A stretch of 17,643 nt of DNA. It comes from Desulfovibrio sp. (GTDB lineage: Bacteria; Desulfobacterota; Desulfovibrionia; Desulfovibrionales; Desulfovibrionaceae). The position numbers were made by a program, and so were the translations under genes. The stretch lies in the NCBI GenBank assembly GCA_014804915.1, contig JAAUYW010000102.1, positions 1-17,643 on the forward strand, written 5' to 3'. The notes beneath the pieces were generated by a model. The model had not been told where the DNA came from, ran no database searches, and saw only the letters and a list, made by a program, of their open reading frames with translations. Every line of letters starts with the position of its first letter. The first letter of the stretch is position 1. Shown here in pieces: positions 3,596 through 17,595 of the stretch.

Positions 3596-5401
3596 ATGAC
3601 TCCCCAGGAACGGATTCGCAATTTCTGCATTATTGCCCACATTGATCACGGCAAGTCAACTCTTGCAGACAGGATTCTTGAAAAGACAGGCCTTGTCAGC
3701 CAGCGGGAGGCGCGCGAGCAGTATCTTGACAAAATGGACCTGGAGCGCGAGCGCGGCATAACGATCAAGGCGCAGACAGTGCGCATTCCGTATATTGCCA
3801 GCGATGGCAGGCAATACGAGCTGAATCTGATTGATACGCCCGGTCATGTGGATTTTCATTATGAGGTTTCCCGTTCTCTTGCAGCCTGCGAGGGCGCGCT
3901 GCTTGTTGTTGACGCTTCCCAGGGCGTGGAAGCGCAGACCATAGCAAATGTCTATCTTGCGCTTGACCATAATCATGAAATGGTGCCAGTTCTGAACAAG
4001 ATAGATCTGCCAGGCGCGGATGTGGAAAAAGTTAAAAAGGAAATTGAGGACAGCATCGGCCTTGACTGCGGCAATGCGCTTGCGATCAGCGCAAAAAGCG
4101 GCCAGGGCGTCGAGGACGTTCTGGAGGCCATAATCCGGCATTTGCCCCCGCCCGAAGGCAATCCGGAGGGCCCGCTCAAGGCGCTGATCTTTGATTCCTG
4201 GTATGACAGCTATCAGGGCGTAGTCACCCTGTTTCGCGTTGTCGATGGCAAGATTCGCCCGGGTGACAAAATTCGCCTGATGAATTCTGGCCGGGAATAT
4301 GAGGTGCTGCGGCTGGGCGTATTTTCGCCTGAAGCCCTGGATGTGCCGGAGCTTGGCGCTGGCGAGGTCGGCTTTCTCTGCGCTTCGATCAAGGAGCTTG
4401 GCCATGCGCGGGTTGGGGACACAATTACGCATGTGGACAATCCCGCTGCCGAGCCCATTGCCGGTTTCAATGATGTGAAGCCGATGGTGTTCTGCGGTCT
4501 ATACCCCACAGAATCTTCTGAATATGAAAATCTCAAGGCCGCCTTGCAAAAATTGCAGCTGAATGACGCCGCATTGAGTTTTGAGCCGGAAACCTCCCAG
4601 GCTCTGGGGTTCGGCTTTCGCTGCGGATTTCTCGGCCTGCTGCACATGGAAATCATTCAGGAGCGGCTGGAACGGGAATTTCAGGTGGGGCTGATTGCTT
4701 CTTCGCCATCTGTCATTTATCGCGTTGAACTCACTGACGGCGAGATTCTGGAAATAGACAATCCGAGCAAGCTGCCCGATATGAGCCGCATCCGCAGCTT
4801 GTCCGAGCCGTATGTAAGCATGGATATTCATACGCCGCCCGAATATGTCGGCAATGTGATGAAGCTTTGCGAAGAAAAGCGCGGCACGCAGAAAAACCTG
4901 AAATACCTGACAGAAAACCGCATTGTCGCCACATACGAATTTCCCTTTGCGGAAATTGTCTATGATTTTTTTGACAGGCTGAAATCTGCTACCCGCGGCT
5001 ATGCCTCAATGGATTACCAGCCGATTGATTACCGCGAATCCGATCTTGTGCGCCTGGATATCATGATCAACGGCGAAATTGTGGACGCGCTTTCCGTGAT
5101 TGTGCATCGCGACAAGGCGTATTCATATGGCCGCTCTCTTGCGCTCAAGCTCAAGCGCACCATTCCGCGCCAGCTTTTCCAGATTGCCATCCAGGCTGCG
5201 ATAGGCCAGAAAATCATTGCCCGCGAAACTGTATCCGCATTTCGCAAGGATGTTACTGCAAAATGCTATGGCGGAGATATTACCCGCAAGCGCAAATTGC
5301 TGGAAAAACAGAAAGCCGGCAAGAAACGCATGAAAAGAATGGGCAATGTGGAATTGCCGCAGGAAGCATTTTTGGCAGCGCTCAAGGTCGGGGATGAATA
5401 G
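3596..5401 (+). CDS. lepA: Elongation factor 4 (LepA), ribosome back-translocating GTPase
   Basis: The protein has 601 residues from the ATG at 3596, the usual LepA length. GTPase motifs are complete: G1 AHIDHGKST (14-22), RGIT (53-56), DTPGH (80-84), NKID (134-137) and SAKSG further on. The C-terminal hallmark [22 protein letters not shown] is followed by the basic tail ending in [12 protein letters not shown], which separates LepA from EF-G and BipA. EF4 binds ribosomes and acts in translation or initiation under stress. The start at 3596 is preceded by GGAAAG. A TTG at 3557 would add 13 residues with no family match and is less likely. The upstream gene ends 51 bases before; the methyltransferase begins 12 bases after the stop, so those two are probably co-transcribed. 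Confidence 0.97.
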
Positions 5402-5413
5402 CGGGCAGCCGAT

Positions 5414-6373
5414 TTGAAAATTTCTTCAAATATTGCTGATAAAGCGGAGGATGTCCTTTCCGGCAATGCCAGAGCTGCGCTCATCCAGTGTGATTGCAGG
5501 AACGTCTTGCCGAAATTGCCAGAAGCCAGCATTGACCTGGTGATTACAGATCCTCCGTATTTCATTGACCGCATGGACCTGGGCTGGGATGATGGGCGTT
5601 TGGCAAACAGCGCCGCGAAAGCCGGTGTAATCGGCGGCTTGCCAATCGGCATGAAGTTTGATCGCAGGCAGGGCGCCGAATTGCAAAAATTCATGCTGCC
5701 TGTTGCGGAAGAGCTTTTCAGAGTGCTAAAGCCTGGCGGTTTCTGTCTCGTTTTCTCGCAGGCCAGACTGTATCACCGGATGGCTATGGCTTTTGATGAA
5801 GCCGGTTTTGAAATCAGGGACATGCTGGCCTGGAAGCGCGAAGGCCAGGCAAAGGCATTCTCGCAGGCGCATTTCATCAGAAAGAATTCCACACTCTCGA
5901 AAGAAGAAAAGGCAAAGCTGATTACGGAACTATCTGTCTACAAGACCCCCCAGCTAAAGCCGCAAATGGAGCCTCTTGTCCTGGCCCAAAAACCGCGTGA
6001 GGGAACGTTTGTTGAAAATTGGCGGAAATATGGGGTGGGGCTGGTTAATTTCAGCGAATCTCTCGATGGCAAATGCCCTGGAAATGTGATGGAAATCTCC
6101 AGGCATGAGCCTGGGAGGGCCAGGATAGGGCACTTGACAGTCAAGCCGCAGCGATTGATCAGCCATCTTGCGAGGCTTTTTTCACGCGCAGGAGGCATAG
6201 TGCTGGATCCTTTTGCTGGCAGCGGCTCGCATGGGGCGGCCGTTCTTGGCAATGGCCGTCGCTTTATTGGCTTCGAGAAAGAGGGCAGATATATCGGGAT
6301 TGCGCGGAGCCGGCTTGCCAGTGGAGCCTGCCAGCAGGATCCTGGGAATTCCTCTGGCGCGCATGGTGGCTAA
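5414..6373 (+). CDS. Orphan beta-class DNA methyltransferase (N6-adenine or N4-cytosine)
   Basis: The protein has 319 residues. The catalytic motif IV, TDPPYF (45-50), lies near the N-terminus, and the AdoMet-binding motif I, VLDPFAGSG (263-271), near the C-terminus. This IV-then-I order defines the beta class in the N6_N4_Mtase family. 'LKPGGFCLVFSQ' after motif IV and 'GNGRRFIGFEKE' after motif I also fit. The middle region (about 130-245) is the likely target-recognition part. DPPY is seen both in adenine-N6 and some cytosine-N4 enzymes, so the product cannot be fixed. The only reasonable start is TTG at 5414, with a stop codon shortly upstream in frame and a weak ribosome site; translation may depend on coupling to lepA 12 bases before. 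No endonuclease is next to it, which suggests an orphan, possibly epigenetic, methyltransferase. Confidence 0.85.
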   Translation: MKISSNIADKAEDVLSGNARAALIQCDCRNVLPKLPEASIDLVITDPPYFIDRMDLGWDDGRLANSAAKAGVIGGLPIGMKFDRRQGAELQKFMLPVAEELFRVLKPGGFCLVFSQARLYHRMAMAFDEAGFEIRDMLAWKREGQAKAFSQAHFIRKNSTLSKEEKAKLITELSVYKTPQLKPQMEPLVLAQKPREGTFVENWRKYGVGLVNFSESLDGKCPGNVMEISRHEPGRARIGHLTVKPQRLISHLARLFSRAGGIVLDPFAGSGSHGAAVLGNGRRFIGFEKEGRYIGIARSRLASGACQQDPGNSSGAHGG

Positions 6374-6543
6374 CCTGATTTTTTTGCAATTGATTCAGGT
6401 ATAAAGCCATAGGCTTGCCTTGAAATAACGCTTGGGTTAATCTGTATGTGCGGCGTCCTGCGGTGCGCAGCTATGGATGTTGGATGGCGAGCGGCCGTCA
6501 TGGCCGGAGCAAGCGCGGCAGCATTTGTAACAAGGAAGCAGGC
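6374..6543 (+). other. 170-base spacer before the glycan operon
   Basis: This gap holds a small hairpin (AAGCC 6404-6408 / GGCTT 6412-6416, loop ATA) without a T-run, so it is not a convincing terminator. A weak sigma-70-like pair is TTGAAA (6420-6425) and TGTATG (6443-6448) with a 17-base spacer. A 33-codon frame (6446-6547) opens here and its stop overlaps the ATG of the next gene. A promoter for the five-gene operon is expected in this gap, but none is strong. Confidence 0.3.
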
Positions 6544-7839
6544 ATGAAAAATTCACCGGCTCAGGCGGAGCAAAAGGCGCAGCCAGGCTATAATCGTAAA
6601 AGGGGCAAGCTCTCTTTTGAGCGCATGGTGGAAATGGCTGAACACATGGGGCTTGCCAATCCGCTTTTTGTCTGTCATGACCGCGCCGCGAAATCGACTA
6701 CAAGCATTGCCGGCAAGGAATATCTCAATTTTTCCACTTACGATTATCTGGATATTAACGCGCACCCGGAAATCACTGCCGCAGTTGCCGAAGTGGCCGC
6801 CAAATTTGGCACTTCCGCCGGCGCTAGCCGTCTGGTAGGCGGCGAAAGGCCGCAGCACCGCAAGCTTGAAAAGGCATTCGCAGATCTCTATGAAGTTGAA
6901 GACGCCATAGTGTATGTCAGCGGGCATGCGGCCAATGTCAATACGCTTGGCTTCATGTTCGGCAACCGCGATGCCATTTTTCATGACGGCCTGGCCCACA
7001 ATTCGCTTGTGCAGGGCTCGATGCTGTCTGGCGCGACCCGTTATTCCTACGCGCATAATGACTGTCACGCGCTTGAGGCGATGCTGAAAAAACACAGGCG
7101 CGATCACAAGTATGCGCTGATAGTTACCGAAGGCCTGTTCAGCATGGATGGCAATATTCCCGATCTGCCCAGACTGATTGAGCTCAAGAAGGAATATGAT
7201 TGCCTGCTGATGGTTGATGAGGCGCATTCCCTTGGTGTGCTTGGCAAGACTGGGCGGGGCGTAAGGGAGTATTTTGGCATCAATCCGTCAGATGTCGATT
7301 TGTGGATGAGCACTCTTTCAAAAGCAATGTGCGGCTGCGGCGGCTTCATCGCTGGCAGCAGTGAGATAATTCATTTTCTTAAATACGGTTCGCCGGGATT
7401 TGTGTTCAGCGTTGGCATGCCGCCAGTTATCGCGGCCGCATGCGACAAGGCGCTTGAGATCATGCTCAGGGAGCCGGAACGTGTGCGCAGGCTCCAGGAA
7501 ATCAGCCAGTATTTTCTGGAATATGCCAGGGTGCGCGGCCTGGATACAGGGGCTGCCCAGGGCTATGCCGTATTGCCGATAATGGTGGGCGATTCCATGG
7601 TCGCCGGCTTTTTGTCGCAGCTTCTGTTCCAGCGCGGCATCTATGTTATGCCAATCGCATTTCCGGCAGTGAAAGAAGGCACTGCGCGCTTGCGCTTCTT
7701 TATTTCGGCCTCGCATACCAGAGAGCAAATTCGCACCGCTATTGACGCCGTTGTCGAAGAACTGCCGAAAGCCAGGACGATAGTGGAAAAATACCGCCAG
7801 GGCCACCCGCAAGAGGCCTCTGCCCCCGCTTCAGACTGA
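6544..7839 (+). CDS. PLP-dependent alpha-oxoamine synthase (RkpG/WcbT/SPT-like)
   Basis: The protein has 431 residues from the ATG at 6544, which follows AAGGA with a 7-base spacer. It has the fold-type I alpha-oxoamine synthase layout: substrate-entry motif YLNFSTYDYLD (60-70), GTSAGASRLVGG (89-100), VSGHAANV (125-132), LAHNS (150-154), DEAHSLGVLG (225-234) and the PLP-binding lysine K260 in STLSKAM. Such enzymes condense an acyl thioester with an amino acid, with loss of CO2, to give an amino ketone. KBL, BioF, serine palmitoyltransferase and CqsA belong here. The text 'GFVFSVGMPP' and the glycan context point to the standalone type found in capsule/K-antigen loci (RkpG, WcbT) rather than BioF, and there are no biotin genes nearby. 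No acyl carrier protein or reductase is in view, so the acyl donor and amino acid are unknown. It is the first gene of the operon; the glycosyltransferase starts 6 bases after its stop. Confidence 0.85.
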   Translation: MKNSPAQAEQKAQPGYNRKRGKLSFERMVEMAEHMGLANPLFVCHDRAAKSTTSIAGKEYLNFSTYDYLDINAHPEITAAVAEVAAKFGTSAGASRLVGGERPQHRKLEKAFADLYEVEDAIVYVSGHAANVNTLGFMFGNRDAIFHDGLAHNSLVQGSMLSGATRYSYAHNDCHALEAMLKKHRRDHKYALIVTEGLFSMDGNIPDLPRLIELKKEYDCLLMVDEAHSLGVLGKTGRGVREYFGINPSDVDLWMSTLSKAMCGCGGFIAGSSEIIHFLKYGSPGFVFSVGMPPVIAAACDKALEIMLREPERVRRLQEISQYFLEYARVRGLDTGAAQGYAVLPIMVGDSMVAGFLSQLLFQRGIYVMPIAFPAVKEGTARLRFFISASHTREQIRTAIDAVVEELPKARTIVEKYRQGHPQEASAPASD

Positions 7840-7845
7840 GCGAAA

Positions 7846-9117
7846 GTGACAGCTGCGCCTGCCTGCCAGAGCTTGCCCGTGGCTTACGTTTTGCTCTGGT
7901 TCCCTCTCTCTTCAGAGACTTTTATTTTTCGCGAAGTGGAAAATCTGGCCGCGCTCGGTCTGGACGTGCGCGTTTATACCCTGTACGGCGACCGTGAAAA
8001 AGGCATTTCCGAAGCGATGCGCAATTATGGCAGGCCGGTGCAAAGAATGGGCTCAAAGGCATTTTTTGCTATCTGGGGCGCATTTTTTCGTCAGCTGCGC
8101 GCCAATCCCCGCCTGGTCTGGCGCCTGCTGCGAAGCGGCCTGTTTCGCAAAATGCGCAATCTGGAAGCGCAGGGCGAAAATCTCTGGTGCTTTATGGCCG
8201 GTTTTCTGCTTGCCGAGAAATGCCGCAAGGATCAAATTGCCCTGATTCACGCTCCCTGGGCGAATGGTCCTGCTACAGCCGCGTGGGTGGCCTCGCAGTT
8301 GAGCGGAATTCCCTTTGCATTCACAGGGCGCGCCGGAGATATTTATCCCCAGGATGGCATTTTGAGGGAAAAAGCGGAATCTGCCCTGTTTGTGCGCGTC
8401 AATAACGAGGCGAATGTGCAGTGGCTGCGCAAATTTTGTCCCCCTGACCGGCAGCAGAAAGTCAAACTGGTTTATAACAGCCTGACTTTTCCGGAAAACT
8501 CCCCTTTGCATTCCCGCAAGGCGGCTCCCCCCTACAGGCTGCTTGCAGTTGGAAGGCTTGTGCGCACAAAGGGCTTTCCCGAGCTGTTTACGGCGATTGC
8601 CAGGCTCAGGCGCGAAAAATTTCCCGTAACGCTTACAGTTGTTGGCGATGGCGCCTGGAAATCAAGGCTTGATAATTTGCGTAAACGGCTGCGCCTTGAA
8701 GAGGTCATCGAGATGGCGGGCTTCATACCCAATGACAGGCTGGCCGCGATAATGCGCGAGCATGACCTGCTGGTTGTGCCCAGCGTTGTTTACAAAAATG
8801 GCGATCGGGATGGCATTCCAAATGTGATCATGGAGGCTGCGTCGCTGGGCTTGCCCGTGGTGGCGACGAATGTCTGCGGTATTGCCGAGGTCATCAGAAA
8901 TGGCGAAACAGGGCATCTTGTGCCGCAGCGCAATCCGGCGGCGCTGGCCTGCGCTATCCGCGATGCGCTGGAACATCCGGCCCAAACGCGCCAGCTGGCA
9001 GCCAATGCAGGGCGGCTTGTAAGGGAAATGTTCGATTCCCGCAAAAACACGCAGGCCCTGAAAGCTCTTTATCTTCAGGCTCTTGGCAGGGATGGTGGCA
9101 ATGCCGGCCAAGCTTGA
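7846..9117 (+). CDS. GT4-family glycosyltransferase A
   Basis: The protein has 423 residues with a GTG start, and is predicted cytoplasmic with the GT-B fold. The N-terminal domain carries LWFPLSSETFIFREVENL (17-34), typical of WcaL/colanic-type enzymes, and HAPWANGPATAAWVAS (135-150). The C-terminal domain carries VGRLVRTKGF (235-244), VVGDG (265-269) and the donor-site motif DGIPNVIMEA (322-331), in which the usual E-x7-E is D322-x7-E330 as in this subfamily, then PVVAT and GETGHLV. The sugar and acceptor are unknown. The ribosome site is poor, so translation may be coupled to the upstream gene 6 bases away. It overlaps the deacetylase. It is a clear paralogue of the second GT4 enzyme (10092-11384). 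The family's usual 'FTAHAxDI' appears here as FTGRAGDIY, so the acceptor pocket may differ. Confidence 0.9.
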   Translation: MTAAPACQSLPVAYVLLWFPLSSETFIFREVENLAALGLDVRVYTLYGDREKGISEAMRNYGRPVQRMGSKAFFAIWGAFFRQLRANPRLVWRLLRSGLFRKMRNLEAQGENLWCFMAGFLLAEKCRKDQIALIHAPWANGPATAAWVASQLSGIPFAFTGRAGDIYPQDGILREKAESALFVRVNNEANVQWLRKFCPPDRQQKVKLVYNSLTFPENSPLHSRKAAPPYRLLAVGRLVRTKGFPELFTAIARLRREKFPVTLTVVGDGAWKSRLDNLRKRLRLEEVIEMAGFIPNDRLAAIMREHDLLVVPSVVYKNGDRDGIPNVIMEAASLGLPVVATNVCGIAEVIRNGETGHLVPQRNPAALACAIRDALEHPAQTRQLAANAGRLVREMFDSRKNTQALKALYLQALGRDGGNAGQA

Positions 9118-10105
9118 TGTGGCAATCAGCCTGGATGTGGAAGAGGAAGGCCTGTTCCGTGGCCAGTATCAATGCCGCGACGTGACAGTTCGCAATGTTG
9201 CCTGCATTTCGAAACTGGCGCCGCTTTTCGAGCGCGGCGTGCGGCCCACTTTTTTTTGCGCCTATCCGGTATTTCTTGATCCTGAAGCGCGGCGGGCGCT
9301 GGAGCAGGCGCGCCAATACGGGGAAATAGGCGCGCATCTGCACCACTGGAACACGCCGCCAGTTGTGCAAAATATACCTGACTCCGGAACCTTGCCGCAA
9401 GTGCCCTCTTTTCAGCTGCCCCTGCAATGTCTGGAGGCCAAGCTGGAGCATCTCCTGCGTGAATGCGACAGCTTCCTTGGCAGTCCCTGCCGGAGTTTCC
9501 GGATGGGACGGTGGGATCTGCATGGCGCTGTCTTTCCGTTGCTTGCAAGGCGCGGGATTCAGGTTGACGCTTCGGTGCGTCCCCTGCACAGTTATGAAAG
9601 TAAAAACTCCGGGCCGGATCATTTTGACGCTCCGGCCGATCCCTACTGGATTCCAGTAAATGGCAGCCGCCTGCTTGAAGTGCCATTGACAGTTGCGCCG
9701 CTTTTTGCGCCGCTCGCGCATATTCCGCATAAATACGCCTGGGGGCGCCAGCTTCGCGCCAGCTTGCGCCACTGGGGGGCTTTGGCAATTTTGCCGGTTG
9801 AGCAGCCCTTGTGGCTTATGAAAATGGCTGCGAATCTTCATGTCAATTCTGGAGGCTCCACACTCTCCATAGCCTGGCACAGTTCTGACCTGATGCCTGG
9901 CGGCAATCCGCGGCTGCCTGATGATGCGGCCGTCAACCGCTTTCTGGCCAGGATAGGCCAGTTTCTGGACTGGCTTGAAAGCAATTTCAGCGTGAATTAT
10001 GTAACAATGACGGAACTGAAAGACAGGGCAAGAATTCAGGCTGCGCGTTGCCAGCGGCCTGCGGACTGGATCTGGGCGCCGGAGACTGAAAATGCCGGAA
10101 ACTGA
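9101..10105 (+). CDS. NodB-fold polysaccharide deacetylase-like protein
   Basis: The protein has 334 residues from the ATG at 9101, chosen because AGGGA sits 8 bases upstream; TTG 9083 and ATG 9092 are alternatives. Features of a carbohydrate esterase 4-like barrel are visible: ISLDVEEEG (9-17, DVE in place of the common T-F-D-D), PTFFCAYPVF (49-58), EIGAHLHHWNTPP (75-87, candidate metal-binding histidines H79, H81, H82), SFRMGRWDLHG (132-142), DASVRPLHS, LEVPLT and AWHSSDL (258-264). The family removes N- or O-acetyl groups from sugars. There is no signal peptide, so it should act in the cytoplasm, presumably on a lipid-linked intermediate. It overlaps the upstream gene by 17 bases and the downstream gene by 14. 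Metal ligands are inferred, not proven; a catalytically inactive relative is possible. Confidence 0.72.
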   Translation: MPAKLDVAISLDVEEEGLFRGQYQCRDVTVRNVACISKLAPLFERGVRPTFFCAYPVFLDPEARRALEQARQYGEIGAHLHHWNTPPVVQNIPDSGTLPQVPSFQLPLQCLEAKLEHLLRECDSFLGSPCRSFRMGRWDLHGAVFPLLARRGIQVDASVRPLHSYESKNSGPDHFDAPADPYWIPVNGSRLLEVPLTVAPLFAPLAHIPHKYAWGRQLRASLRHWGALAILPVEQPLWLMKMAANLHVNSGGSTLSIAWHSSDLMPGGNPRLPDDAAVNRFLARIGQFLDWLESNFSVNYVTMTELKDRARIQAARCQRPADWIWAPETENAGN

Positions 10106-11384
10106 GGGCGCGCTCGCAGCCGGTCAGCCGCATCTTGCCATTGTGCTTTTATGGTATCCCCTTTTTACGCAGCCATTTATTTTCAGGGAAGTGGAGAGCC
10201 TGGCAGCCAGAATGCCTCTGGAAGTCTATACGCTTTATGGGAGAAACCTGCGCCATTGTTCAGGGGAGATGAAAATGGCGGCTGGCCGCTGCCATGCGTA
10301 TGGCTCCGCAAAGGTCGGCCAAATCTGCTGGGAAGCCCTGTGCCAGGTCATTCGCCAGCCGCGGGTCATCTGGAAACTGTTCAGGCGCAGTTTATGGCGA
10401 AAATGGACCAGTCTGGAAGTGTTTGGCGAGAATCTCTGGGCTTTTTTGACTGGAATTTCGCTGGGCAGACGCTTCCGCGAGGATGGCATCGACCTGGTTT
10501 ACGCTCCCTGGCCGCGTGGGGCGGCTACCGCGGCCTGGGTTGGCGCCACGCTTGCGGGACTGCCATTTGCAATAGCGGCGCGGGGAGACAATCTGGAGCC
10601 GGCTGATCCGGATCTGGCGGACAAGCTGGCAGCGGCTGTTCTGGTGCGTGCTAATAACGAGGCTGACAGGAAGCGGATTGAGTTATTTGACTGCGGCCAG
10701 GCAAAAGGCAAGACCGCCCTGGTTTACAACAGCCTGACTTTGCCCGGGCCCAAACGCCGCGAGGCGGGAATGCATTCGCCCCTGCGCCTGTTGAGCCTGG
10801 GCAGATTCGATGTCACAAAGGGTTTTGATGTGCTTTTGCAGGCTTGCGCCATTCTGAAACGGCAAGGCCTTGATTTCAGGCTGACTCTTGCCGGGGGCGG
10901 AGGCAAGGTAATGGGCCTTGGCGCCATGACAGGCACCCTGAAGGAAATGCGCAGGGGGCTTGGCCTTGAGGGCGATGTGGAAATGCCTGGCCTGATTTCC
11001 CATGATGATCTGCCAGACCTGCTCGCCAGCCATGACATTTTTCTCGCGCCCTGCGTAATTGATTCATCCGGCCGCAGGGATGGCATTCCCAATACCGTAA
11101 TTGAAGCTCTTGCAGCCGGGATGCCGGTTATTGCAAGTGATATTAACGCATTGCCGGAAGTTGTGCGCAATGGCGAAACTGGCGTCCTCGTGCCGCAAAA
11201 GGATCCGGCCGCTTTGGCAAGGGCAATCGCCGACTTGTCCGAAAGGCCGGATGAGGCTGCGAAGCTGGGCAAAAATGGCGCGCGCCTGGCGGCTGAACTG
11301 TTTGACGCCGAAGCCAATGCCGCAAGGCTGGCCGAAATGTTGGGAAAAGCCGCCAGCAGGGAAGGGACAGGATGTGCGGGATAG
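10092..11384 (+). CDS. GT4-family glycosyltransferase B
   Basis: The protein has 430 residues; the ATG at 10092 follows GGAG at 7 bases. It aligns by eye along its length with glycosyltransferase A: LLWYPLFTQPFIFREVESL (19-37), APWPRGAATAAWV (138-150), VRANNEAD (185-192), VYNSLTLP (211-218), LGRFDVTKGFD (236-246), and the donor-site DGIPNTVIEA (330-339; D330-x7-E338), then NALPEVVRNGETGVLVP. An extra stretch at about 269-285 (GGGKVMGLGAMTGTLKE) is not in A. The region matching A's FTGRAGDIY is here AIAARGDNLE, so acceptor recognition has probably diverged after duplication. It is cytoplasmic; sugar and acceptor are unknown. It overlaps the deacetylase upstream by 14 bases and asnB downstream by 13. 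Confidence 0.9.
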   Translation: MPETEGALAAGQPHLAIVLLWYPLFTQPFIFREVESLAARMPLEVYTLYGRNLRHCSGEMKMAAGRCHAYGSAKVGQICWEALCQVIRQPRVIWKLFRRSLWRKWTSLEVFGENLWAFLTGISLGRRFREDGIDLVYAPWPRGAATAAWVGATLAGLPFAIAARGDNLEPADPDLADKLAAAVLVRANNEADRKRIELFDCGQAKGKTALVYNSLTLPGPKRREAGMHSPLRLLSLGRFDVTKGFDVLLQACAILKRQGLDFRLTLAGGGGKVMGLGAMTGTLKEMRRGLGLEGDVEMPGLISHDDLPDLLASHDIFLAPCVIDSSGRRDGIPNTVIEALAAGMPVIASDINALPEVVRNGETGVLVPQKDPAALARAIADLSERPDEAAKLGKNGARLAAELFDAEANAARLAEMLGKAASREGTGCAG

Positions 11385-13312
11385 CGGGCCTTTGCCGGCT
11401 TGATGGCAAGCCGCTGCCAGCAGGCGCGGCGCTGGCAGTGAAGGCTATGACGGATGTGATGGCGCATCGCGGCCCGGATGGGGAAGGCCAGTGGCAGGAG
11501 GGTCCGGTCTGCCTTGGGCACAGGCGCCTGTCGATCATTGATATCGCCGGCGGCACGCAGCCAATGCCAGGGCCGCACGGCAAGAGCTGGATTGTGTTCA
11601 ATGGCGAGATTTATAATTTTCGTGAACTGCGCAAGCTCCTGGAAAGCCGCGGCCTGATATTCCGGAACAATTCTGATACAGAAGTAATTCTGGCGGCTTA
11701 CGCAGCCTGGGGAGTGGACTGTCTGGAACGGCTTGAGGGCATGTTCGCTTTTGCGCTTTGGGATTGCGAGAAAAGGCGTCTTTTTTGCGCCCGCGATCAT
11801 TTTGGCAAAAAGCCTTTCTATTATTCGCTCCAGAACGGAATTTTCGCATTCGCCTCCGAGCTGACAGGTCTGGAGCAGCTTGAAACGGCCTGCAAATTCG
11901 CAGACTGGTCCTTCAGCGTTTCGCCGCAGGCGCTGATGCGTTATCTAGCTTATGAATATGTGCCTGCGCCGCAGGCGATCTACAGTGAGGCCAAGGTGCT
12001 CGAGCCGGCGCACTATCTGCTGCTTGAAAACGGCAGCCTGCAAACGCGGCGCTACTGGGACTTGCCGGCGCCTGCGTCCAGCTGCAGGGAAAGCGAGCGG
12101 GAACTCTGCGGCCAGCTCCACGCCCTGCTTGATCGCGCCGTGCAGGCCCGCATGGTCAGCGATGTGCCGCTTGGCGTATTTCTCTCGGGCGGAATTGATT
12201 CCACAATAGTCGCAGGGCTCATGGCCGCGCATTCCAGTCAGCCAGTGCGGACATTTTCCATAGGGTTCACAGAAGCGAGTTATGATGAATCCCGCTATGC
12301 CCGCATTGCGGCAGAGGCCTATCATACTGATCATCACGAAAGAATTCTCTCCGCTGCTGAATGCGCTGACGAATTGCCTGGCATAGTGCGCAGAATGGAT
12401 ACGCCGATGGCGGATGCCTCCTGCGCCCCAACCTGGCTGCTTTCCGGCCTGGCGCGCGAGAATGTTACAGTTGCCCTTGGCGGCGATGGCGCGGATGAGC
12501 TATGGGCCGGGTATGAGCATTATATCGGATTCAGAATCGCGCTCTGGTATAACGCACTGCCGGCCTTTTTGCGCTCCCTGGCCGGCAGGCTGGCGACCCT
12601 CCTGCCAGAATCGGCAGGATACATTAATCCCCGTCTTGCGGCACGAACATTTCTCGCTGGCGCGGCAGCTCCGGACTGGCTTCGCGTCCAGACCATGCTT
12701 ACTGCCATCAGCCCGGAAATGCAGCGCCAGATTCTGGCTCCTGGCTGGCCTGGCCCTGGCGGCGTTCCTGGGCCGGAACAGCTCTTTGCGCCGACGCGGA
12801 AGCAGTTCGAGCACTGGCAGCCAATGCAGGCGGCATCGCCGCTGGCCCGGGCTTTCCATGTTTATTGCAGGCAATTTTTGCTTGATGACATCCTGGTCAA
12901 GGTTGACCGCTGCTCCATGCTCCATTCCCTGGAAGTGCGCGCGCCTTTTCTGGACAGGCATGTCGCGGAATTTGCCGCGCGGCTGCCCCTTGATTACAAG
13001 CTTCGCGGTTTCAGGCGCAAATATTTGCTGAAAAAGGCATTTGCGAAGCTGCTGCCTGCCGCGATTCTGAAGCGCAACAAGCGCGGCTTCCAGATACCGG
13101 TCGCCGCCTGGCTGCGAGGCAGATTGAAACCGCTGCTGCTGGAATTCGGATCCAGGGATTTCCTCGAGAAACAGGGGATCTTTGATTATCAGGGCGTCCG
13201 GAAAATCATGGCTGCGCATTTTTCGGAAAAAGCGGACATGCGCAAGCCGCTCTGGACATTTCTGGTATTGCAGCTCTGGCTTGAAAGCAGGCGCGGTCGC
13301 TTGCGGCCCTGA
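11372..13312 (+). CDS. asnB: AsnB-type glutamine-dependent amidotransferase
   Basis: The protein has 646 residues; the ATG at 11372 follows GGGAAGGGACAGG. An N-terminal class II glutamine amidotransferase domain begins at Cys2 (MCGIAGL) and has HRGPDG (32-37) and FNGEIYN (76-82). The asparagine-synthase domain has the PP-loop SGGIDST (272-278) and GGDGADELWAGY (370-381). Asparagine synthetase B makes Asn from Asp, Gln and ATP. Relatives in polysaccharide clusters (including exosortase/XrtA-linked loci) are thought to amidate sugar carboxyl groups or other acceptors. The position as last gene of a glycosyltransferase operon favours a role on the glycan product, though housekeeping asparagine synthesis cannot be excluded. 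All key residues are present, so it should be active. It overlaps the upstream gene by 13 bases and ends in a terminator. Confidence 0.92.
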   Translation: MCGIAGLCRLDGKPLPAGAALAVKAMTDVMAHRGPDGEGQWQEGPVCLGHRRLSIIDIAGGTQPMPGPHGKSWIVFNGEIYNFRELRKLLESRGLIFRNNSDTEVILAAYAAWGVDCLERLEGMFAFALWDCEKRRLFCARDHFGKKPFYYSLQNGIFAFASELTGLEQLETACKFADWSFSVSPQALMRYLAYEYVPAPQAIYSEAKVLEPAHYLLLENGSLQTRRYWDLPAPASSCRESERELCGQLHALLDRAVQARMVSDVPLGVFLSGGIDSTIVAGLMAAHSSQPVRTFSIGFTEASYDESRYARIAAEAYHTDHHERILSAAECADELPGIVRRMDTPMADASCAPTWLLSGLARENVTVALGGDGADELWAGYEHYIGFRIALWYNALPAFLRSLAGRLATLLPESAGYINPRLAARTFLAGAAAPDWLRVQTMLTAISPEMQRQILAPGWPGPGGVPGPEQLFAPTRKQFEHWQPMQAASPLARAFHVYCRQFLLDDILVKVDRCSMLHSLEVRAPFLDRHVAEFAARLPLDYKLRGFRRKYLLKKAFAKLLPAAILKRNKRGFQIPVAAWLRGRLKPLLLEFGSRDFLEKQGIFDYQGVRKIMAAHFSEKADMRKPLWTFLVLQLWLESRRGRLRP

Positions 13313-13327
13313 TCGCGCCCGCTTTTT
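13290..13327 (+). terminator. Intrinsic terminator overlapping the asnB stop
   Basis: GGCGCGGTC (13290-13298) pairs along all nine positions (one G-U) with GATCGCGCC (13311-13319) around a 12-base loop, followed by CGC and five T residues (13323-13327) then GTTGTT. The stem includes part of the asnB stop codon (TGA 13310-13312). It lies between convergent genes, only 20 bases from the end of the ACT gene on the other strand. In the minus direction no good T-run follows. Confidence 0.75.
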
Positions 13328-13332
13328 GTTGT

Positions 13333-13776
13333 TCAGCCATTGCGCTGCTTCAATTCTTCCTGGCTGATTGGCGCGCAGCCGGCTTTGGCCAGAACCTGCG
13401 CGGCCTTGTCGATATCAGCATCGCGCACGCGAAAGATTACATAGGCCCGATCCTGCTGCCTGCCCACAAAAGCGTAAAGATATTCAATATTAATTCCGGC
13501 CTCGCCAAGCGTGTCCAGCGCTTCGGCAAGACTGCCTGGCGCATCCTTGAGCGGCACTGCCAGCACTGGCGTGATCTTGAACACATAGTTGGCTTCTTTC
13601 AGCGCCAGGGATGCCTTGTGCAGGTCGCTGACGATCACGCGCAGGATTCCGTAATCTTCCACATCGGCTATTGAAAGGGCGCGCAGGTCTATATTTCTTT
13701 CACGCAAAAGGGAGGCAAAGGCCGCCAGGGATCCGGGCCTGTTCTCAATGAAAACAGAGAGCTGGTTTACAGTCAT
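13333..13776 (-). CDS. Tandem ACT-domain protein
   Basis: The protein has 147 residues with two ACT domains: about 1-66 (VNQLSVFIENRPGSLAAFASLLRE) and about 70-140 (VLAVPLKDAPGSLAEALDTLGEAGINIEY). Each shows the typical 'xxNxPGSL' or 'DxPGSL' ligand-loop pattern. ACT domains bind amino acids or related small molecules and regulate partner enzymes. There is no catalytic domain. It starts 11 bases after the paaK stop and its ribosome site (TAGGAG) overlaps that stop, indicating co-translation. Small double-ACT proteins next to phenylacetate-CoA ligase are common in anaerobes, so a role in sensing an aromatic amino acid or its acid is likely but inferred. No signal peptide, so it is cytoplasmic. 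Confidence 0.88.
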   Translation of the reverse strand: MTVNQLSVFIENRPGSLAAFASLLRERNIDLRALSIADVEDYGILRVIVSDLHKASLALKEANYVFKITPVLAVPLKDAPGSLAEALDTLGEAGINIEYLYAFVGRQQDRAYVIFRVRDADIDKAAQVLAKAGCAPISQEELKQRNG

Positions 13777-13787
13777 GGATACGGCTC

Positions 13788-15086
13788 CTAGATTTTCCGG
13801 TTATCTATTATTCTCGCTGCCTTGCCTTCGCTGCGCGTAATCGACTTTGGCGCGACCAGTTTCACTGCCGCAGTGATGCCCAGCATGGCCTTGAGCGCGT
13901 TTGCCAGCTCCTTTTCCCGGGCTGCGACTTCGCCAAGATTGTCAGAAAACATCTCCGGAGTCATTTCCACGCGCACTTCGAGGCTGTCAGTATTTCTCAC
14001 GCGCTCGACAACCAGCTGGTAATTGGCCGGATAGCCCTTGTTGATCAGCACTGTCTCGATCTGGGATGGGAAGACGTTGACGCCCTTGATAATCAGCATG
14101 TCATCGGTTCTGCCCATCAGGCGGGCCATTTTTACGTGCGTGCGTCCGCATGAGCAGGGCTTGCGCGAAAGGCGCGTCAGATCGCGCGTGCGGTAGCGAA
14201 TCAGGGGAAACGCCTCCTTGTTGATGCTTGTAAAAACAAGTTCGCCCACTTCGCCTTCCGGCAACACCTCGCCTGTTTCCGGATCAATGATTTCAGCGAT
14301 GAACTGATCCTCATTGATATGCATGCCTGTTTGCTCGCTGCATTCAAATGAGACGCCGGGGCCGCAAAGCTCGGTCAGGCCGTAGATGTCATGCGCCCTG
14401 ATGCCGAGGCTGTTTTCTATATCGCGGCGCATTTCATCGTTCCAGTCTTCGGCGCCGAAAATGTCGGCTTTCAGTTTTATCTTGTCGCGCGCGCCTTTCT
14501 CATGCACTGTTTCGGCTTTGTAGGCGGCATAGGAGGGCGTGCAGCAGAGAATGGTGGAGCCGAGATCGCAGAGAAACTGCACCTGGCGCTCGGTATTGCC
14601 GGAGGACATGGGCAGCGTGAGGGAGCCCACCATGTGGGAGCCGCCATTCAGGCCAGGGCCGCCAGTAAAGAGGCCATAGCCGTAGCAGACATGCACGACA
14701 TCTTCCTTGCCGCCGCCTGCGGCCACAATCGCGCGCGCGCAGCAGGAATCCCAGGCGTCCAGGTCGTTCTGGGTGTAAAAGGCGACTACGCGCCGGCCGG
14801 TTGTGCCGCTTGTGGACTGGATGCGCACGCAATCCGCCAGCGGCCTTGCCAGCATTCCGTAGGGATAGGCGTCACGCAGATCGTCCTTTGTCAGGAAGGG
14901 CAGCCTGGGCAAATCGTCCACGCCTTTTATGTCCTCTGGCTTGACGCCTTTTTTGTCCATGAGATTTCGGTAATAGGGCACATTTGCATAGACCCGGGCT
15001 ACTGTTTCCACAAGCCGCCTGTTTTGCAGGTCAAGGATTGTCTCGCGATCCGCGCATTCTATTTCAGGCTGAAAGTAGTTTTCCAT
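13788..15086 (-). CDS. paaK: Phenylacetate-CoA ligase (AMP-forming)
   Basis: The protein has 432 residues from the ATG at 15086. It has the ANL-family order: RIQSTSGTTGRRV (88-100, ATP loop TSGTTG), an aromatic-binding region with YGYGLFTGG (135-143), DIYGLTELCGPG (233-244), RYRTRD (297-302), CSCGR (311-315) and the C-terminal KGVNVFPSQIE (334-344). It should make phenylacetyl-CoA or another aryl-acetyl-CoA from acid, ATP and CoA in the cytoplasm. The start is chosen because GGAGG sits 5 bases upstream and the length matches the family; the ATG at 15146 would add 20 non-conserved residues with a poor ribosome site. It lies between the PP-loop gene (75 bases away) and the ACT gene (11 bases away). 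In Desulfovibrio-like bacteria such ligases often go with indolepyruvate oxidoreductase, which is not in this window. Confidence 0.93.
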   Translation of the reverse strand: MENYFQPEIECADRETILDLQNRRLVETVARVYANVPYYRNLMDKKGVKPEDIKGVDDLPRLPFLTKDDLRDAYPYGMLARPLADCVRIQSTSGTTGRRVVAFYTQNDLDAWDSCCARAIVAAGGGKEDVVHVCYGYGLFTGGPGLNGGSHMVGSLTLPMSSGNTERQVQFLCDLGSTILCCTPSYAAYKAETVHEKGARDKIKLKADIFGAEDWNDEMRRDIENSLGIRAHDIYGLTELCGPGVSFECSEQTGMHINEDQFIAEIIDPETGEVLPEGEVGELVFTSINKEAFPLIRYRTRDLTRLSRKPCSCGRTHVKMARLMGRTDDMLIIKGVNVFPSQIETVLINKGYPANYQLVVERVRNTDSLEVRVEMTPEMFSDNLGEVAAREKELANALKAMLGITAAVKLVAPKSITRSEGKAARIIDNRKI

Positions 15087-15161
15087 TGGCGCCTCCGCTT
15101 CAGGGCCAGTAGATGTCTGTCGCAAATTTGCCAGAATGTCGTCCATCTGGCCAAATCCGTT

Positions 15162-16322
15162 TTATTTTTCATCTGTCATGCTAGCAGAAACGTCGGCATT
15201 ATGCAAAAATGCCGCAGTGTTTTTTTTGTCCTGCTGCTTTTGCCTGCGCAGGGCGCGCAGCTCTTCGCGAATATCCCGCCATTCCGGCAGTCCCCAGGTT
15301 TGGGCATGCCTGTCTGCGCAGACGCGCATGGTCATGCCTTCTCCTTCCCGGATGTCCACTGCGCTGCCTCCATGCCGCGTTGTGCAGGAAGCAAGTATTT
15401 CCGCTGCTTCGCGCAATTTCTCCTGAGGCCAGGATTTGCCTTCCCTGCACAGGGCCAGCGGCCCGGGAAAGGGCAGGCGCAGAATGGCGTCGCTGTCCAT
15501 TTTCGCAGCCATTATTTTCTGGTTATCCTGCCGGTTGCGGCCTATGCAGACCCAGTGCCTGAAGCCGTCGCGATGATCAGCGAACATGCGGCCAAGATTC
15601 GCGAGGCTGAAATCTTTTGCCAGCTCGGCAACTGTCCGGCTGCCGGCATTATTTTGATGGCGCTTGAGAATTACCCAGTAGCGCCTGCTGTTTTCAATTT
15701 CTGTAAGGCGGCAGCCGCCTGCCGGAGTCGGAATCTCTTCGATTTCGAGCTCTTTTGCGAGCTGAAGCTGGGCATTTCGTCCGCGTCCTGAAATTGAGGG
15801 CAATTTTTCCAGGTTCACGAGCGCGCTGACGCAGCCCGGGGCAGGGGGGCAATGCCTCGCGCAGAGGGGGCGCAAAAGCTCGTTCTGGCAGCCGCTTTCC
15901 CTGGCGATTATGTTCATTGCGTCTGGCCGCTGCGACATGGGCCGCTGGCCGCTAACTTCTCCGGTGGCTATAAATTTGGCGCCTGTGGCAGCCATTATTT
16001 CACGCGCGGCGCGCAGCAGGACTATTTTGCAATCTATGCAGGGATTGAGCGTTTTTCCTGTGCCATGCGGAGGGGAATTGACGAGCATGGTTATGAAATC
16101 CCTGCTCGCGTCAATAGCGCGGATCTTCAGGCCATGGACTGCTTCCCAGTGGCGGATTTTGCCCGGAGAGCCAAAAAATGGCGAAAAAAAATGCAGACAG
16201 AGGGGATGAAGGCCCTGCTCCTGCAGCAATCTGGCTGCCAGGATGCTGTCCAGGCCGCCTGAAAAGAGCACAAGACAATCAGGAGTGTTTGACATGGCTT
16301 TTTTTAAGCGCACTGGAGGCAT
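15162..16322 (-). CDS. MnmA/ThiI-like PP-loop ATPase, putative tRNA-thiolation protein
   Basis: The protein has 386 residues if the ATG at 16322 is used; the ATG at 16295 (MSNTPDCLVLF) is an equally possible start, and neither has a clear ribosome site. The PP-loop SGGLDS (21-26) opens a HUP-fold ATPase. NPCIDCK (93-99), ATGEVSGQRPMSQ (119-131) and PAGGCRLTE (200-208) are characteristic of MnmA/ThiI-like relatives often annotated as tRNA thiouridylase-like. Cysteines C95, C98 and C204 are candidate sulfur-handling residues. The C-terminal half (about 215-330) resembles the NFACT-R/DUF814-like RNA-binding part found in this family. It probably adenylates a tRNA base for sulfur transfer, but the exact base is unknown. 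A segment with CARHCPPAPGC (154-164) is Cys-rich and differs from the usual Pro/Leu-rich text there. It is first in a minus-strand group with paaK and the ACT gene. Confidence 0.75.
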   Translation of the reverse strand: MPPVRLKKAMSNTPDCLVLFSGGLDSILAARLLQEQGLHPLCLHFFSPFFGSPGKIRHWEAVHGLKIRAIDASRDFITMLVNSPPHGTGKTLNPCIDCKIVLLRAAREIMAATGAKFIATGEVSGQRPMSQRPDAMNIIARESGCQNELLRPLCARHCPPAPGCVSALVNLEKLPSISGRGRNAQLQLAKELEIEEIPTPAGGCRLTEIENSRRYWVILKRHQNNAGSRTVAELAKDFSLANLGRMFADHRDGFRHWVCIGRNRQDNQKIMAAKMDSDAILRLPFPGPLALCREGKSWPQEKLREAAEILASCTTRHGGSAVDIREGEGMTMRVCADRHAQTWGLPEWRDIREELRALRRQKQQDKKNTAAFLHNADVSASMTDEK

Positions 16323-16596
16323 GGAGCAAGCAAAAACTGGTTTAACGCAGGGGCAAAAATTGGCATTTAATTGAGATAAAGTTGATGAAAAGTCTTGAAA
16401 ATTTCATGAAAAAACAGGGAAATATAGGCAAAATTGGTAAAATTTGCGCCCATAAGGCCTAAATTTTTTTTCTTTACCAGATAAGGCTTGCGATTTTTTC
16501 TAAAGGCGGCTATTGCTACTTCAGCAGCCATTGCCAGAGGCGGACAGGAAGGGCCCCTGCTGGCGGGTTTCAAGAAATCATATTTTGGGAGGCATC
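16323..16596. other. Divergent AT-rich region with phased A-tracts
   Basis: This 274-base gap separates genes facing away from each other. A-tracts centred near 16379, 16389, 16399, 16411, 16421, 16431 and 16440 recur about every 10 bp, the pattern expected for intrinsically curved DNA; further tracts lie at 16332-16336 and 16355-16359. TGAAA-A-TTTCA (16396-16406) is a short palindrome. A weak sigma-70-like pair for the rightward gene is TTGCGA (16488-16493) and TATTGC (16511-16516), spacer 17. No convincing leftward promoter was found. From about 16500 the base content returns to normal. Confidence 0.55.
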
Positions 16597-17595
16597 ATGA
16601 AAACTCTGCGGTATCTTGCCCTGGCGGCGGTTATGGTTCTGGGCCTTGCGGTCGCGGCCACAGCCGCAGCGCCGACTTGCAACAAAAAGGTCAACAGTTT
16701 TGATTTCGTTGTGGACTATTCAGGCTCCATGATGATGCAGAACAAGCAGCTGAAGCTTGACAAGATTGTCGTGGCCAAAAATGTCCTGCAGCGCATCAAT
16801 TCTTCGATTCCCGCTCTGGACTTTAATGGCGGCTTGCACACCATCACCCCGAATGGCGTGATTATCCCCCAGGGTCCCTGGGATCGCGCAGCCATGGGCG
16901 CAGGCATTGACCAGCTCAAGACCGGTTTCCCGATTTTTGGACGCATGACTGGCATGGGCGACGGCCTGCAGAAGTATGAGCCATTCATTTCCGCAATGCA
17001 GGCTCCTTCTGCCATTATTCTGGTAACCGATGGCGACAACAACCGCGGCATTAACGTAGTTGACGAGATTCGCCAGCTTTACGCCAGCCAGCGTGATCTT
17101 ACTGTGCATATCATTTCCCTTGCCGATAATGCGAAGGGCGAAGCCATTATCAAGGAAATCGCCGCCCTTAATCCCAACTCGGTTGTTGTGCGCGCCGAAG
17201 AGCTCGCCACCAGCGACGCGGCTGTTGAGCGCTTTGTGCTGGCAGTATTCTGCCAGGATGAGGACGTGATCGTGCTGCGCGGCGTGCACTTCGCGTTCAA
17301 TTCCTATGCTCTTGACAGCAAGGCCCAGGGAATTCTGAATGAAGCAGCCACAATCATCAAGGAACATCCGAATCAGAAAGTCATCCTGAAGGGCTGGACA
17401 GACTACATTGGCTCCGATGCCTACAACAAGCGCCTGTCCCAGAACCGCGCCAATTCTGTGAAGAATTACCTTGAAAAGCAGGGCATTCCAGCCAGCCGCA
17501 TGACTGCTATCGGCTGCGGCAAGTCCTTCAAGTATGACAATCATACTGAAGAAGGCCGCTACATGAATCGCCGTGTTGAGATCTCATTTGAATAA
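16597..17595 (+). CDS. Periplasmic VWA-domain protein with OmpA peptidoglycan-binding domain
   Basis: The protein has 332 residues; the ATG at 16597 follows a strong GGGAGG site 4 bases away. The signal peptide spans about 1-24. The von Willebrand A domain (about 33-220) has a full MIDAS metal site: DYSGS (D40, S42, S44), TGMGDGL (T118) and TDGD (D145). The OmpA-like domain (about 223-332) has FAFNSYALDSKA, GWTDYIGSDAYN (267-278), LSQNRANSV (280-288) and GRYMNRRVEI; D269 and R284 correspond to the residues that bind diaminopimelate in peptidoglycan. It lacks an obvious beta-barrel, so it is probably a soluble periplasmic protein tethered to the cell wall that binds a partner through the VWA face. 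Cysteines C28, C219 and C307 could form a disulfide. The frame open back to 16513 gives only a non-conserved extension. Confidence 0.92.
   Translation: MKTLRYLALAAVMVLGLAVAATAAAPTCNKKVNSFDFVVDYSGSMMMQNKQLKLDKIVVAKNVLQRINSSIPALDFNGGLHTITPNGVIIPQGPWDRAAMGAGIDQLKTGFPIFGRMTGMGDGLQKYEPFISAMQAPSAIILVTDGDNNRGINVVDEIRQLYASQRDLTVHIISLADNAKGEAIIKEIAALNPNSVVVRAEELATSDAAVERFVLAVFCQDEDVIVLRGVHFAFNSYALDSKAQGILNEAATIIKEHPNQKVILKGWTDYIGSDAYNKRLSQNRANSVKNYLEKQGIPASRMTAIGCGKSFKYDNHTEEGRYMNRRVEISFE

Follow-up and report, generated by a model that had tools for sequence, protein, structure and literature searches.

The window analysed here, that is, the whole stretch of 17,643 nt formed by contig JAAUYW010000102.1 (C102) of the Desulfovibrio sp. 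assembly GCA_014804915.1, carries five genes that form a conserved block: they encode an alpha-oxoamine synthase (AOS), a GT4 glycosyltransferase, a NodB-like protein, a second GT4 and an AsnB-type amidotransferase. Together with a second operon located elsewhere in the same genome, they probably make up a two-part, genus-wide pathway for the synthesis and export of a surface molecule that bears sugar and resembles a sphingolipid, all of whose chemistry we infer. The genes, their order, their co-conservation, their linkage and the domain content of their products are directly established.

The five-gene block and its conservation

The block occupies the central part of the window and consists of the following features:

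6544..7839, + strand: AOS, a pyridoxal phosphate (PLP)-dependent enzyme of the serine palmitoyltransferase (SPT)/BioF/KBL fold type (PF00155, E 8e-48)
7846..9117, + strand: GT4 glycosyltransferase a, GT4a (PF00534, E 2e-34)
9101..10105, + strand: NodB/CE4-fold protein, a probable deacetylase or deformylase, from its predicted structure (alternative starts 9083 and 9092)
10092..11384, + strand: GT4 glycosyltransferase b, GT4b, a paralogue of GT4a (PF00534, E 1.6e-33)
11372..13312, + strand: AsnB-type glutamine amidotransferase (PF00733, E 3e-101)
13302..13317, + strand: weak hairpin with a T tail, a putative terminator, not above chance

A previous sequence-only reading of this DNA had proposed the same five open reading frames, and all of them were found where it placed them. 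The junctions also agree with it, with 6 bases between the first two genes followed by overlaps of 17, 14 and 13 bases, the first of which assumes that the NodB-like gene starts at the ATG at 9101 (a TTG at 9083 and an ATG at 9092 are in-frame alternatives). The names given to the PLP synthase, the two GT4s and the amidotransferase are backed by Pfam and NCBIfam models. The single terminator claimed for the end of the block did not hold up, as 8 sites like 13302-13317 were observed and 10.5 were expected from shuffled sequences.

The conservation of the block was surveyed in 79 Desulfovibrio genomes, 55 of which are good (at least 90% complete and at most 5% contaminated). The AOS occurs in 76 of the 79 and in 55/55 good ones, and the three negative genomes are 63-80% complete. 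Gene order was counted at 68 of the 76 AOS loci, the eight with less than 6 kb downstream of the AOS being set aside. The exact order AOS-GT4a-NodB-GT4b-AsnB is found at 48 of these loci, and 12 more keep it minus GT4a only; taken singly, AsnB is present at 67, GT4b at 62, NodB at 61 and GT4a at 55. Among the exceptions, G196, G211, G245 and G246 retain only GT4a and AsnB, G240 retains AsnB alone, NodB is missing in G242 and G248, and both GT4b and AsnB are missing in G200. At the full loci, gaps of at most 30 bases, measured from the nearest in-frame start, a choice that favours small gaps, separate GT4a from NodB in 44/44 cases, GT4b from AsnB in 46/48, NodB from GT4b in 31/48 and AOS from GT4a in 27/47. 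The window has LepA and a DNA methylase ahead of the block, and neither was found immediately 5' of it at the other genus loci. Because 48 of the 68 loci hold the exact order, and because these two genes are not its neighbours elsewhere, the block is more than a chance association. The neighbourhood comparison thus bears out the expectation of a co-conserved, operon-like set.

The second operon

The sequence-only reading noted that a flippase, an exporter and an acyl carrier protein (ACP) are lacking in the window. Genes for these parts lie on contig C62 (L083) of the same assembly:

4077-7190: AT-ACP protein, with acyltransferase (AT) and ACP domains
7205-8656: outer-membrane channel
8587-9552: HlyD protein
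9559-10956: Wzx-like flippase

The channel, HlyD protein and flippase of C62 are 69, 66 and 72% identical, over the best segments, to counterparts that were tested with Pfam; L083, from a metagenome-derived genome, contains many ambiguous bases, which appear as X in the translation. In 52 of the 76 genomes the second operon stands back-to-back with the AOS, in divergent orientation and within 2.5 kb, and the channel (PF02321), HlyD and Wzx-like genes were noted in those divergent loci that extend far enough. Of the other 24 AOS loci, six include too little upstream sequence for a decision, and different neighbours are present in 18, the window included. The AT-ACP protein is found in 75/79 genomes of the genus and in all 55 good ones. 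Other arrangements occur: the second operon is about 55 kb from the AOS in G261, G217 has an AOS and an AT-ACP gene in divergent orientation a second time, and a partial second AOS adjoins the AT-ACP gene of G230. Furthermore, among 17 second-operon loci situated away from the AOS, four (L147, L151, L153 and L154) have a NodB gene and a glycosyltransferase paralogue beside the flippase; one of these four genomes is G242, whose AOS operon is without NodB.

Taken together, we give about equal weight to belief and to doubt that a genus-core cell-envelope pathway, with the steps proposed below, is encoded by two operons, the five genes being one and the second operon supplying the parts absent from the window.

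Reduced symbiont genomes keep both parts. G261 (one contig of 1,410,056 bases) and G209 have all five genes and the second operon, and several lipopolysaccharide (LPS) genes are reported as lost from the corresponding symbiont phylotypes (PMC7608387). PF16197, a mark of the ketosynthases (KSs) of type I polyketide synthases (PKSs), had no match in G261 or G235, and the window genome gave one match, below the cut-off. Therefore, a type I PKS ketosynthase does not seem to be needed by the AOS and AT-ACP of G261 and G235.

The AT-ACP protein

A match to AT-ACP was present at 79 loci; after removing three proteins shorter than 780 aa and six repeats from the same genome, 70 remained, namely two full-length relatives and 68 proteins without a KS, among them L056 (genus g27) and L164 (g4). 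The full-length relatives come from other genera (G020, 2,431 aa, and G134, 2,592 aa) and have the organization FabK-like enoyl reductase (ER)-KS-AT-ACP-ketoreductase (KR)-dehydratase (DH). As seen at L160:3569-10864 and L162:5885-13663, this is an unusual PKS architecture, with the FabK-like ER fused ahead of KS-AT-ACP-KR-DH.

Motif searches for KR and KS by regular expression also missed both full-length controls, and were replaced by profiles built from the domains of these two relatives. Against the 68 KS-less proteins, the profiles found AT in 68, ACP in 68, DH in 64 and a weak KR in three; the KS and ER profiles matched none of the 68. The Ser, Arg and His of the AT and the Ser of the ACP are conserved in 68/68. 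Loading and carrying thus appear to be kept and chain extension gone, because the AT and ACP domains and their residues are retained in all 68 proteins and the KS in none. AT-ACP therefore resembles a PKS without its ketosynthase, which may have been lost or may never have been joined. An origin by erosion of an SgaA-like PKS (SgaAB is compared below) was considered and rejected: the ACP and DH match the ER-KS-AT-ACP-KR-DH type of L160 and L162, and when the same profiles were run on 18 long frames of the other PKS type, KS matched 17 of them and ACP and DH matched 0/18.

AlphaFold gave a poor model for AT-ACP (mean pLDDT 53.9, six sequences), of which the C-terminal part alone was used. In the model, this part matches PKS dehydratases (3kg6 chains, TM score by target 0.64-0.67); by eye, the DH-like region is without the DH His, which is only suggestive. 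A protein search with the C-terminal part listed five proteins, the query counted. In G134, a GT4 (36%) and an AsnB (56%) adjoin the full-length relative.

The synthase and its PKS-linked relatives

The best solved relatives of the AOS are 8s1y/7poa and the SPTs 8guh/3a2b. The AOS scores below the cut-offs of the NCBIfam SPT models (NF047600, 294.6 vs 640; NF047599, 246 vs 500; NF047603, 186.9 vs 670). Having the BioF model as its top NCBIfam hit by bits, it could be taken for an ordinary enzyme of biotin or threonine metabolism, a reading to which we attach next to no probability and which was rejected, as both models concerned also fall below their cut-offs (BioF TIGR00858, 351 vs 426; KBL NF005394, 316.9 vs 460). 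In addition, another member of the family, about 37% identical, is present in several of these genomes and may be the actual BioF or KBL. In this respect the sequence-only reading, which such metabolism would have refuted, was right.

The Lys/His/Asp/Arg catalytic set of the fold family is present in the AOS, as aligned with 8guh, and is kept in the core rows listed (duplicates included), where "core" denotes at least 62% identity to the window AOS, a cut set by the analyst. The motif AHS[LF]G occurs in the 81 core rows listed (of 83, duplicates included), as in the SPT 8guh and unlike 8s1y; it is replaced by AHALG in 6/20 PKS-linked AOS rows. In a FastTree tree built from 103 AOS rows, the 83 core rows (duplicates included) fell together with a support of 0.017 after midpoint rooting, and nothing is drawn from it.

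Nineteen other AOS loci were compared (L057-L059 and L061-L076). In 18 of them a long PKS-cluster frame precedes the AOS (truncated in L071), and in the 19th, L067, the long frame lies on the other strand. The sole long frame scanned, that of L062, reads KS-AT-DH-ER-KR-ACP. A capsule protein of the KpsS/C type (PF05159; scanned in one locus) is present in L065, L068 and L070, near PKS-linked AOSs only, as seen at these loci and not from a genome-wide search. The lead offered by RkpG and WcbT, which we take to be the synthase names in the Rkp and Wcb loci, is thus a good one, because AOS relatives from other genera lie behind long PKS frames and three of them have a KpsS/C-type protein nearby. 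Accessory PKS-AOS loci (e.g., L065:1-13102) also contain recurring GNAT, short-chain dehydrogenase/reductase (SDR) and sulfatase genes, and are Rkp/Wcb- or Sga-like. Within the genus, 17 genomes have a second AOS (49-57% identity), accompanied on the same contig, as judged by eye, by a PKS-type frame in 16. In genus g30, MacB-like, channel and HlyD genes are found at a PKS-AOS locus, and PKS-linked AOS and NodB share one contig in 3/3 genomes that have such an AOS; AOS, NodB and trans-envelope export are thus linked once more in g30, where the PKS is a different one.

These data also bear on a serious rival, according to which a short acyl-ACP is the substrate of the AOS and the product, a small aminoketone, becomes a substituent of the glycan instead of part of a lipid. 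AT-ACP has no KS, no ER and, in most rows, no recognizable KR; its AT has in 68/68 the Arg that is characteristic of malonyl-loading ATs; PF16197 had no match in G261 and G235, so no type I PKS ketosynthase is seen there; and amino-acid substituents on an amidated uronic acid have a precedent in the sugar of the Wbp/Vim system. We nevertheless consider a small aminoketone rather unlikely, since close AOS relatives sit behind long PKS frames, the one scanned being fully reducing, and since SgaB, a PKS-linked AOS, takes long chains.

The NodB-fold protein and the amidotransferase

No Pfam or NCBIfam model matched the NodB-like protein, and no Pfam family did so even at E ≤ 5, the polysaccharide deacetylase profile included. 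Its predicted structure (pLDDT 91.8) has the NodB/CE4 fold, which upholds the call made from the letters alone. In an alignment of 40 sequences, D18, H85 and H87 are invariant and H88 nearly so; judged from the alignment, these are candidate metal-site residues. A second NodB-like paralogue (43-44% identity) is present on contig C12 of the window genome (L167:7545-8516), with no recognized relatives of the block around it. The top-scoring model for the AsnB-type protein is TIGR03108, the XrtA-associated amidotransferase, at 560.5 bits, which is below its cut-off of 816.9. An XrtA/PEP-CTERM locus was considered and rejected: an exosortase (PF09721) occurs in 0/79 genus genomes and in 1/14 of a control set. 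As judged from their sequences, the enzymes of the block would fit a lipid-linked, deacetylated and amidated glycan.

The glycan genes might instead serve an O-antigen-like polymer or an extracellular polysaccharide (EPS), to which the AOS is only loosely connected. Their content does vary, down to the four genomes with GT4a and AsnB and the one with AsnB only, and NodB relatives are found without a close AOS. We hold this to be improbable, as AsnB follows the AOS at 67/68 loci, a GT4 and an AsnB adjoin the full-length AT-ACP relative of G134, and a polymerase was not recognized in the block.

The proposed pathway

The first step of the proposed glycolipid pathway would be the loading of an acyl unit by the AT onto the ACP of the same protein; alternatively, the chain may be completed on this ACP by an ordinary fatty-acid-synthesis ketosynthase acting in trans. 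In the second step, for which the enzyme family, SgaB and the ACP-dependent SPTs provide the basis, the AOS would carry out a decarboxylating condensation of the ACP-bound acyl group and an amino acid, in all likelihood serine, to give a 3-oxo amino-lipid similar to a sphingoid base. The GT4s would then add sugars, the NodB-fold enzyme would strip off a formyl or acetyl group, and a uronic acid would be converted into its amide by the AsnB-type enzyme, for which VimE and WbpS are precedents. Finally, the Wzx-like protein would flip the product, and HlyD and the channel would bring it to the outer surface. In its most specific form, this proposal is of a genus-wide, undescribed, glycosylated amino-lipid of the outer surface, sphingoid-like, made by an AOS that is fed by a KS-less, PKS-derived protein, exported by Wzx, HlyD and channel, and kept where several LPS genes are lost; we put it forward tentatively.

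Several observations weigh against it. AT-ACP is without a ketosynthase (0/68) and so offers no evident source for a long chain, and the Arg and FH motif of its AT presumably indicate malonyl loading. The AOS is below the cut-off of the SPT, BioF and KBL models alike, and no SDR, ceramide-synthase-like gene or N-acyltransferase was recognized in the core block. The AsnB-type protein clears the cut-off of TIGR01536, a broad model for asparagine synthases (502.1 vs 267.1). Regarding linkage, the two operons of the window genome are on separate contigs (C102 and C62); in G222 (67% complete), the AOS is flanked by channel, HlyD and Wzx genes and AT-ACP was not found; the AT-ACP operon is present in G003 (89% complete), whose sole close AOS match is 53% identical and located behind a PKS-cluster frame; the full-length AT-ACP relative of G020 occurs without a close AOS; and NodB relatives occur without one in many genomes, e.g., 14 of genus g26.

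The PKS ancestry also suits a soluble, sugar-bearing secondary metabolite that is secreted and does not belong to the envelope, and many small molecules are exported through HlyD proteins and channels of the TolC type. This is quite improbable, because presence in 55/55 good genomes and in two reduced symbionts is unlike a typical accessory metabolite, and because the Wzx-like flippase suggests a lipid-linked substrate.

If the glycolipid proposal is true, a genus-wide, sphingoid-like surface glycolipid would be a new host-facing molecule, and Desulfovibrio a new group of possible sphingolipid-type producers; AT-ACP would be a clear case of a PKS reduced to loading and carrying, with its partner PLP enzyme retained. 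Desulfovibrio is described as a gut resident and opportunistic pathobiont (PMC10383351), and bacterial sphingolipids derived from a PKS have been shown to affect an animal host (PMC12134224). The two-operon set lends itself to gene deletion combined with lipid mass spectrometry.

Neighboring genes

In the window, an N6/N4 DNA methylase (PF01555; 5414-6373, +) sits between LepA and the block, and no restriction enzyme was recognized among the window proteins. An ACT-like protein and a PaaK-like ligase (13333-15146, -; named from their open reading frames only) converge on the block; a relative of the former is found instead just upstream of the AOS in L107 and L111-L113. They are followed by a ThiI-like protein with only a partial ThiI domain match (15162-16322, -) and by a protein with an OmpA C-terminal domain (Pfam) and, by eye, an N-terminal part similar to von Willebrand factor A (16513-17595, +). 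At other loci, an M48 peptidase is present in 47/68 cases; this gene and a small Pfam-less protein (c10) lie 3' of AsnB in many of them (e.g., L044:14460-15752), and they were not found after AsnB in the window. L052:2043-4289 (+), a 749 aa protein adjoining the AOS block of its genome, matches IpgD (PF05925, E 2.9e-61), a family of the inositol-phosphatase type.

Comparison with known systems

No description of this gene set in Desulfovibrio was present among the literature matches listed, which leave most subscription journals outside their coverage. The XrtA/PEP-CTERM EPS systems share a TIGR03108-like amidotransferase, a deacetylase fold and a GT4, and differ in that no exosortase is found in the 79 genomes and in that the amidotransferase is below the TIGR03108 cut-off. 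In the Wbp/Vim linking-sugar pathway, a uronamide is formed by WbpS, a TIGR03108 family member, and the deacetylase proposed for the same sugar is the putative CE4 enzyme VimE (PMC7468200). The likeness extends to a NodB/CE4-type enzyme, a TIGR03108-like amidotransferase and glycosyltransferases, whereas the window proteins include no wbp genes and are accompanied by the AOS and AT-ACP instead. PF13480, which we take to be the VimA domain, occurs in 57/79 genus genomes (on contig C35 in the window genome; none in G261, G235 and G209), and in seven genomes within 9 kb of the AOS. For D. vulgaris, the same paper mentions, in a supplementary figure, a comparable order of vimA, deacetylase, glycosyltransferase and AsnB genes (PMC7468200).

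The Rkp and Wcb capsule loci (rkpA/wcbR PKS) tie a PKS and a synthase to a surface polysaccharide (PMC3908369). Some AOS relatives do sit with a PKS and a KpsS/C-type protein, whereas the core AOS locus has no KS-bearing PKS and has Wzx, HlyD and a channel. The rhodobacterial SPTs of the AcpR/AasR system prefer a dedicated acyl-ACP (PMC9386255). They resemble the present case in pairing a PLP synthase with a dedicated ACP, and differ from it in that the Desulfovibrio ACP and an AT are fused parts of one degenerate, PKS-like protein and that no acyl-ACP synthetase was recognized in the block.

The remaining system is SgaAB of Pseudomonas fluorescens MYb115, an iterative type I PKS and an AOS, in which the SPT activity of SgaB was measured (PMC12134224). 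The Desulfovibrio AOS is known from sequence, and its partner has no KS, derives from another type of PKS and is linked to glycan and export genes; indeed, a complete iterative PKS with a KS was not found beside the core AOS (KS 0/68). What the two share is an AOS with SPT-like sequence features, a PKS-derived partner and a long-chain base as the proposed product.

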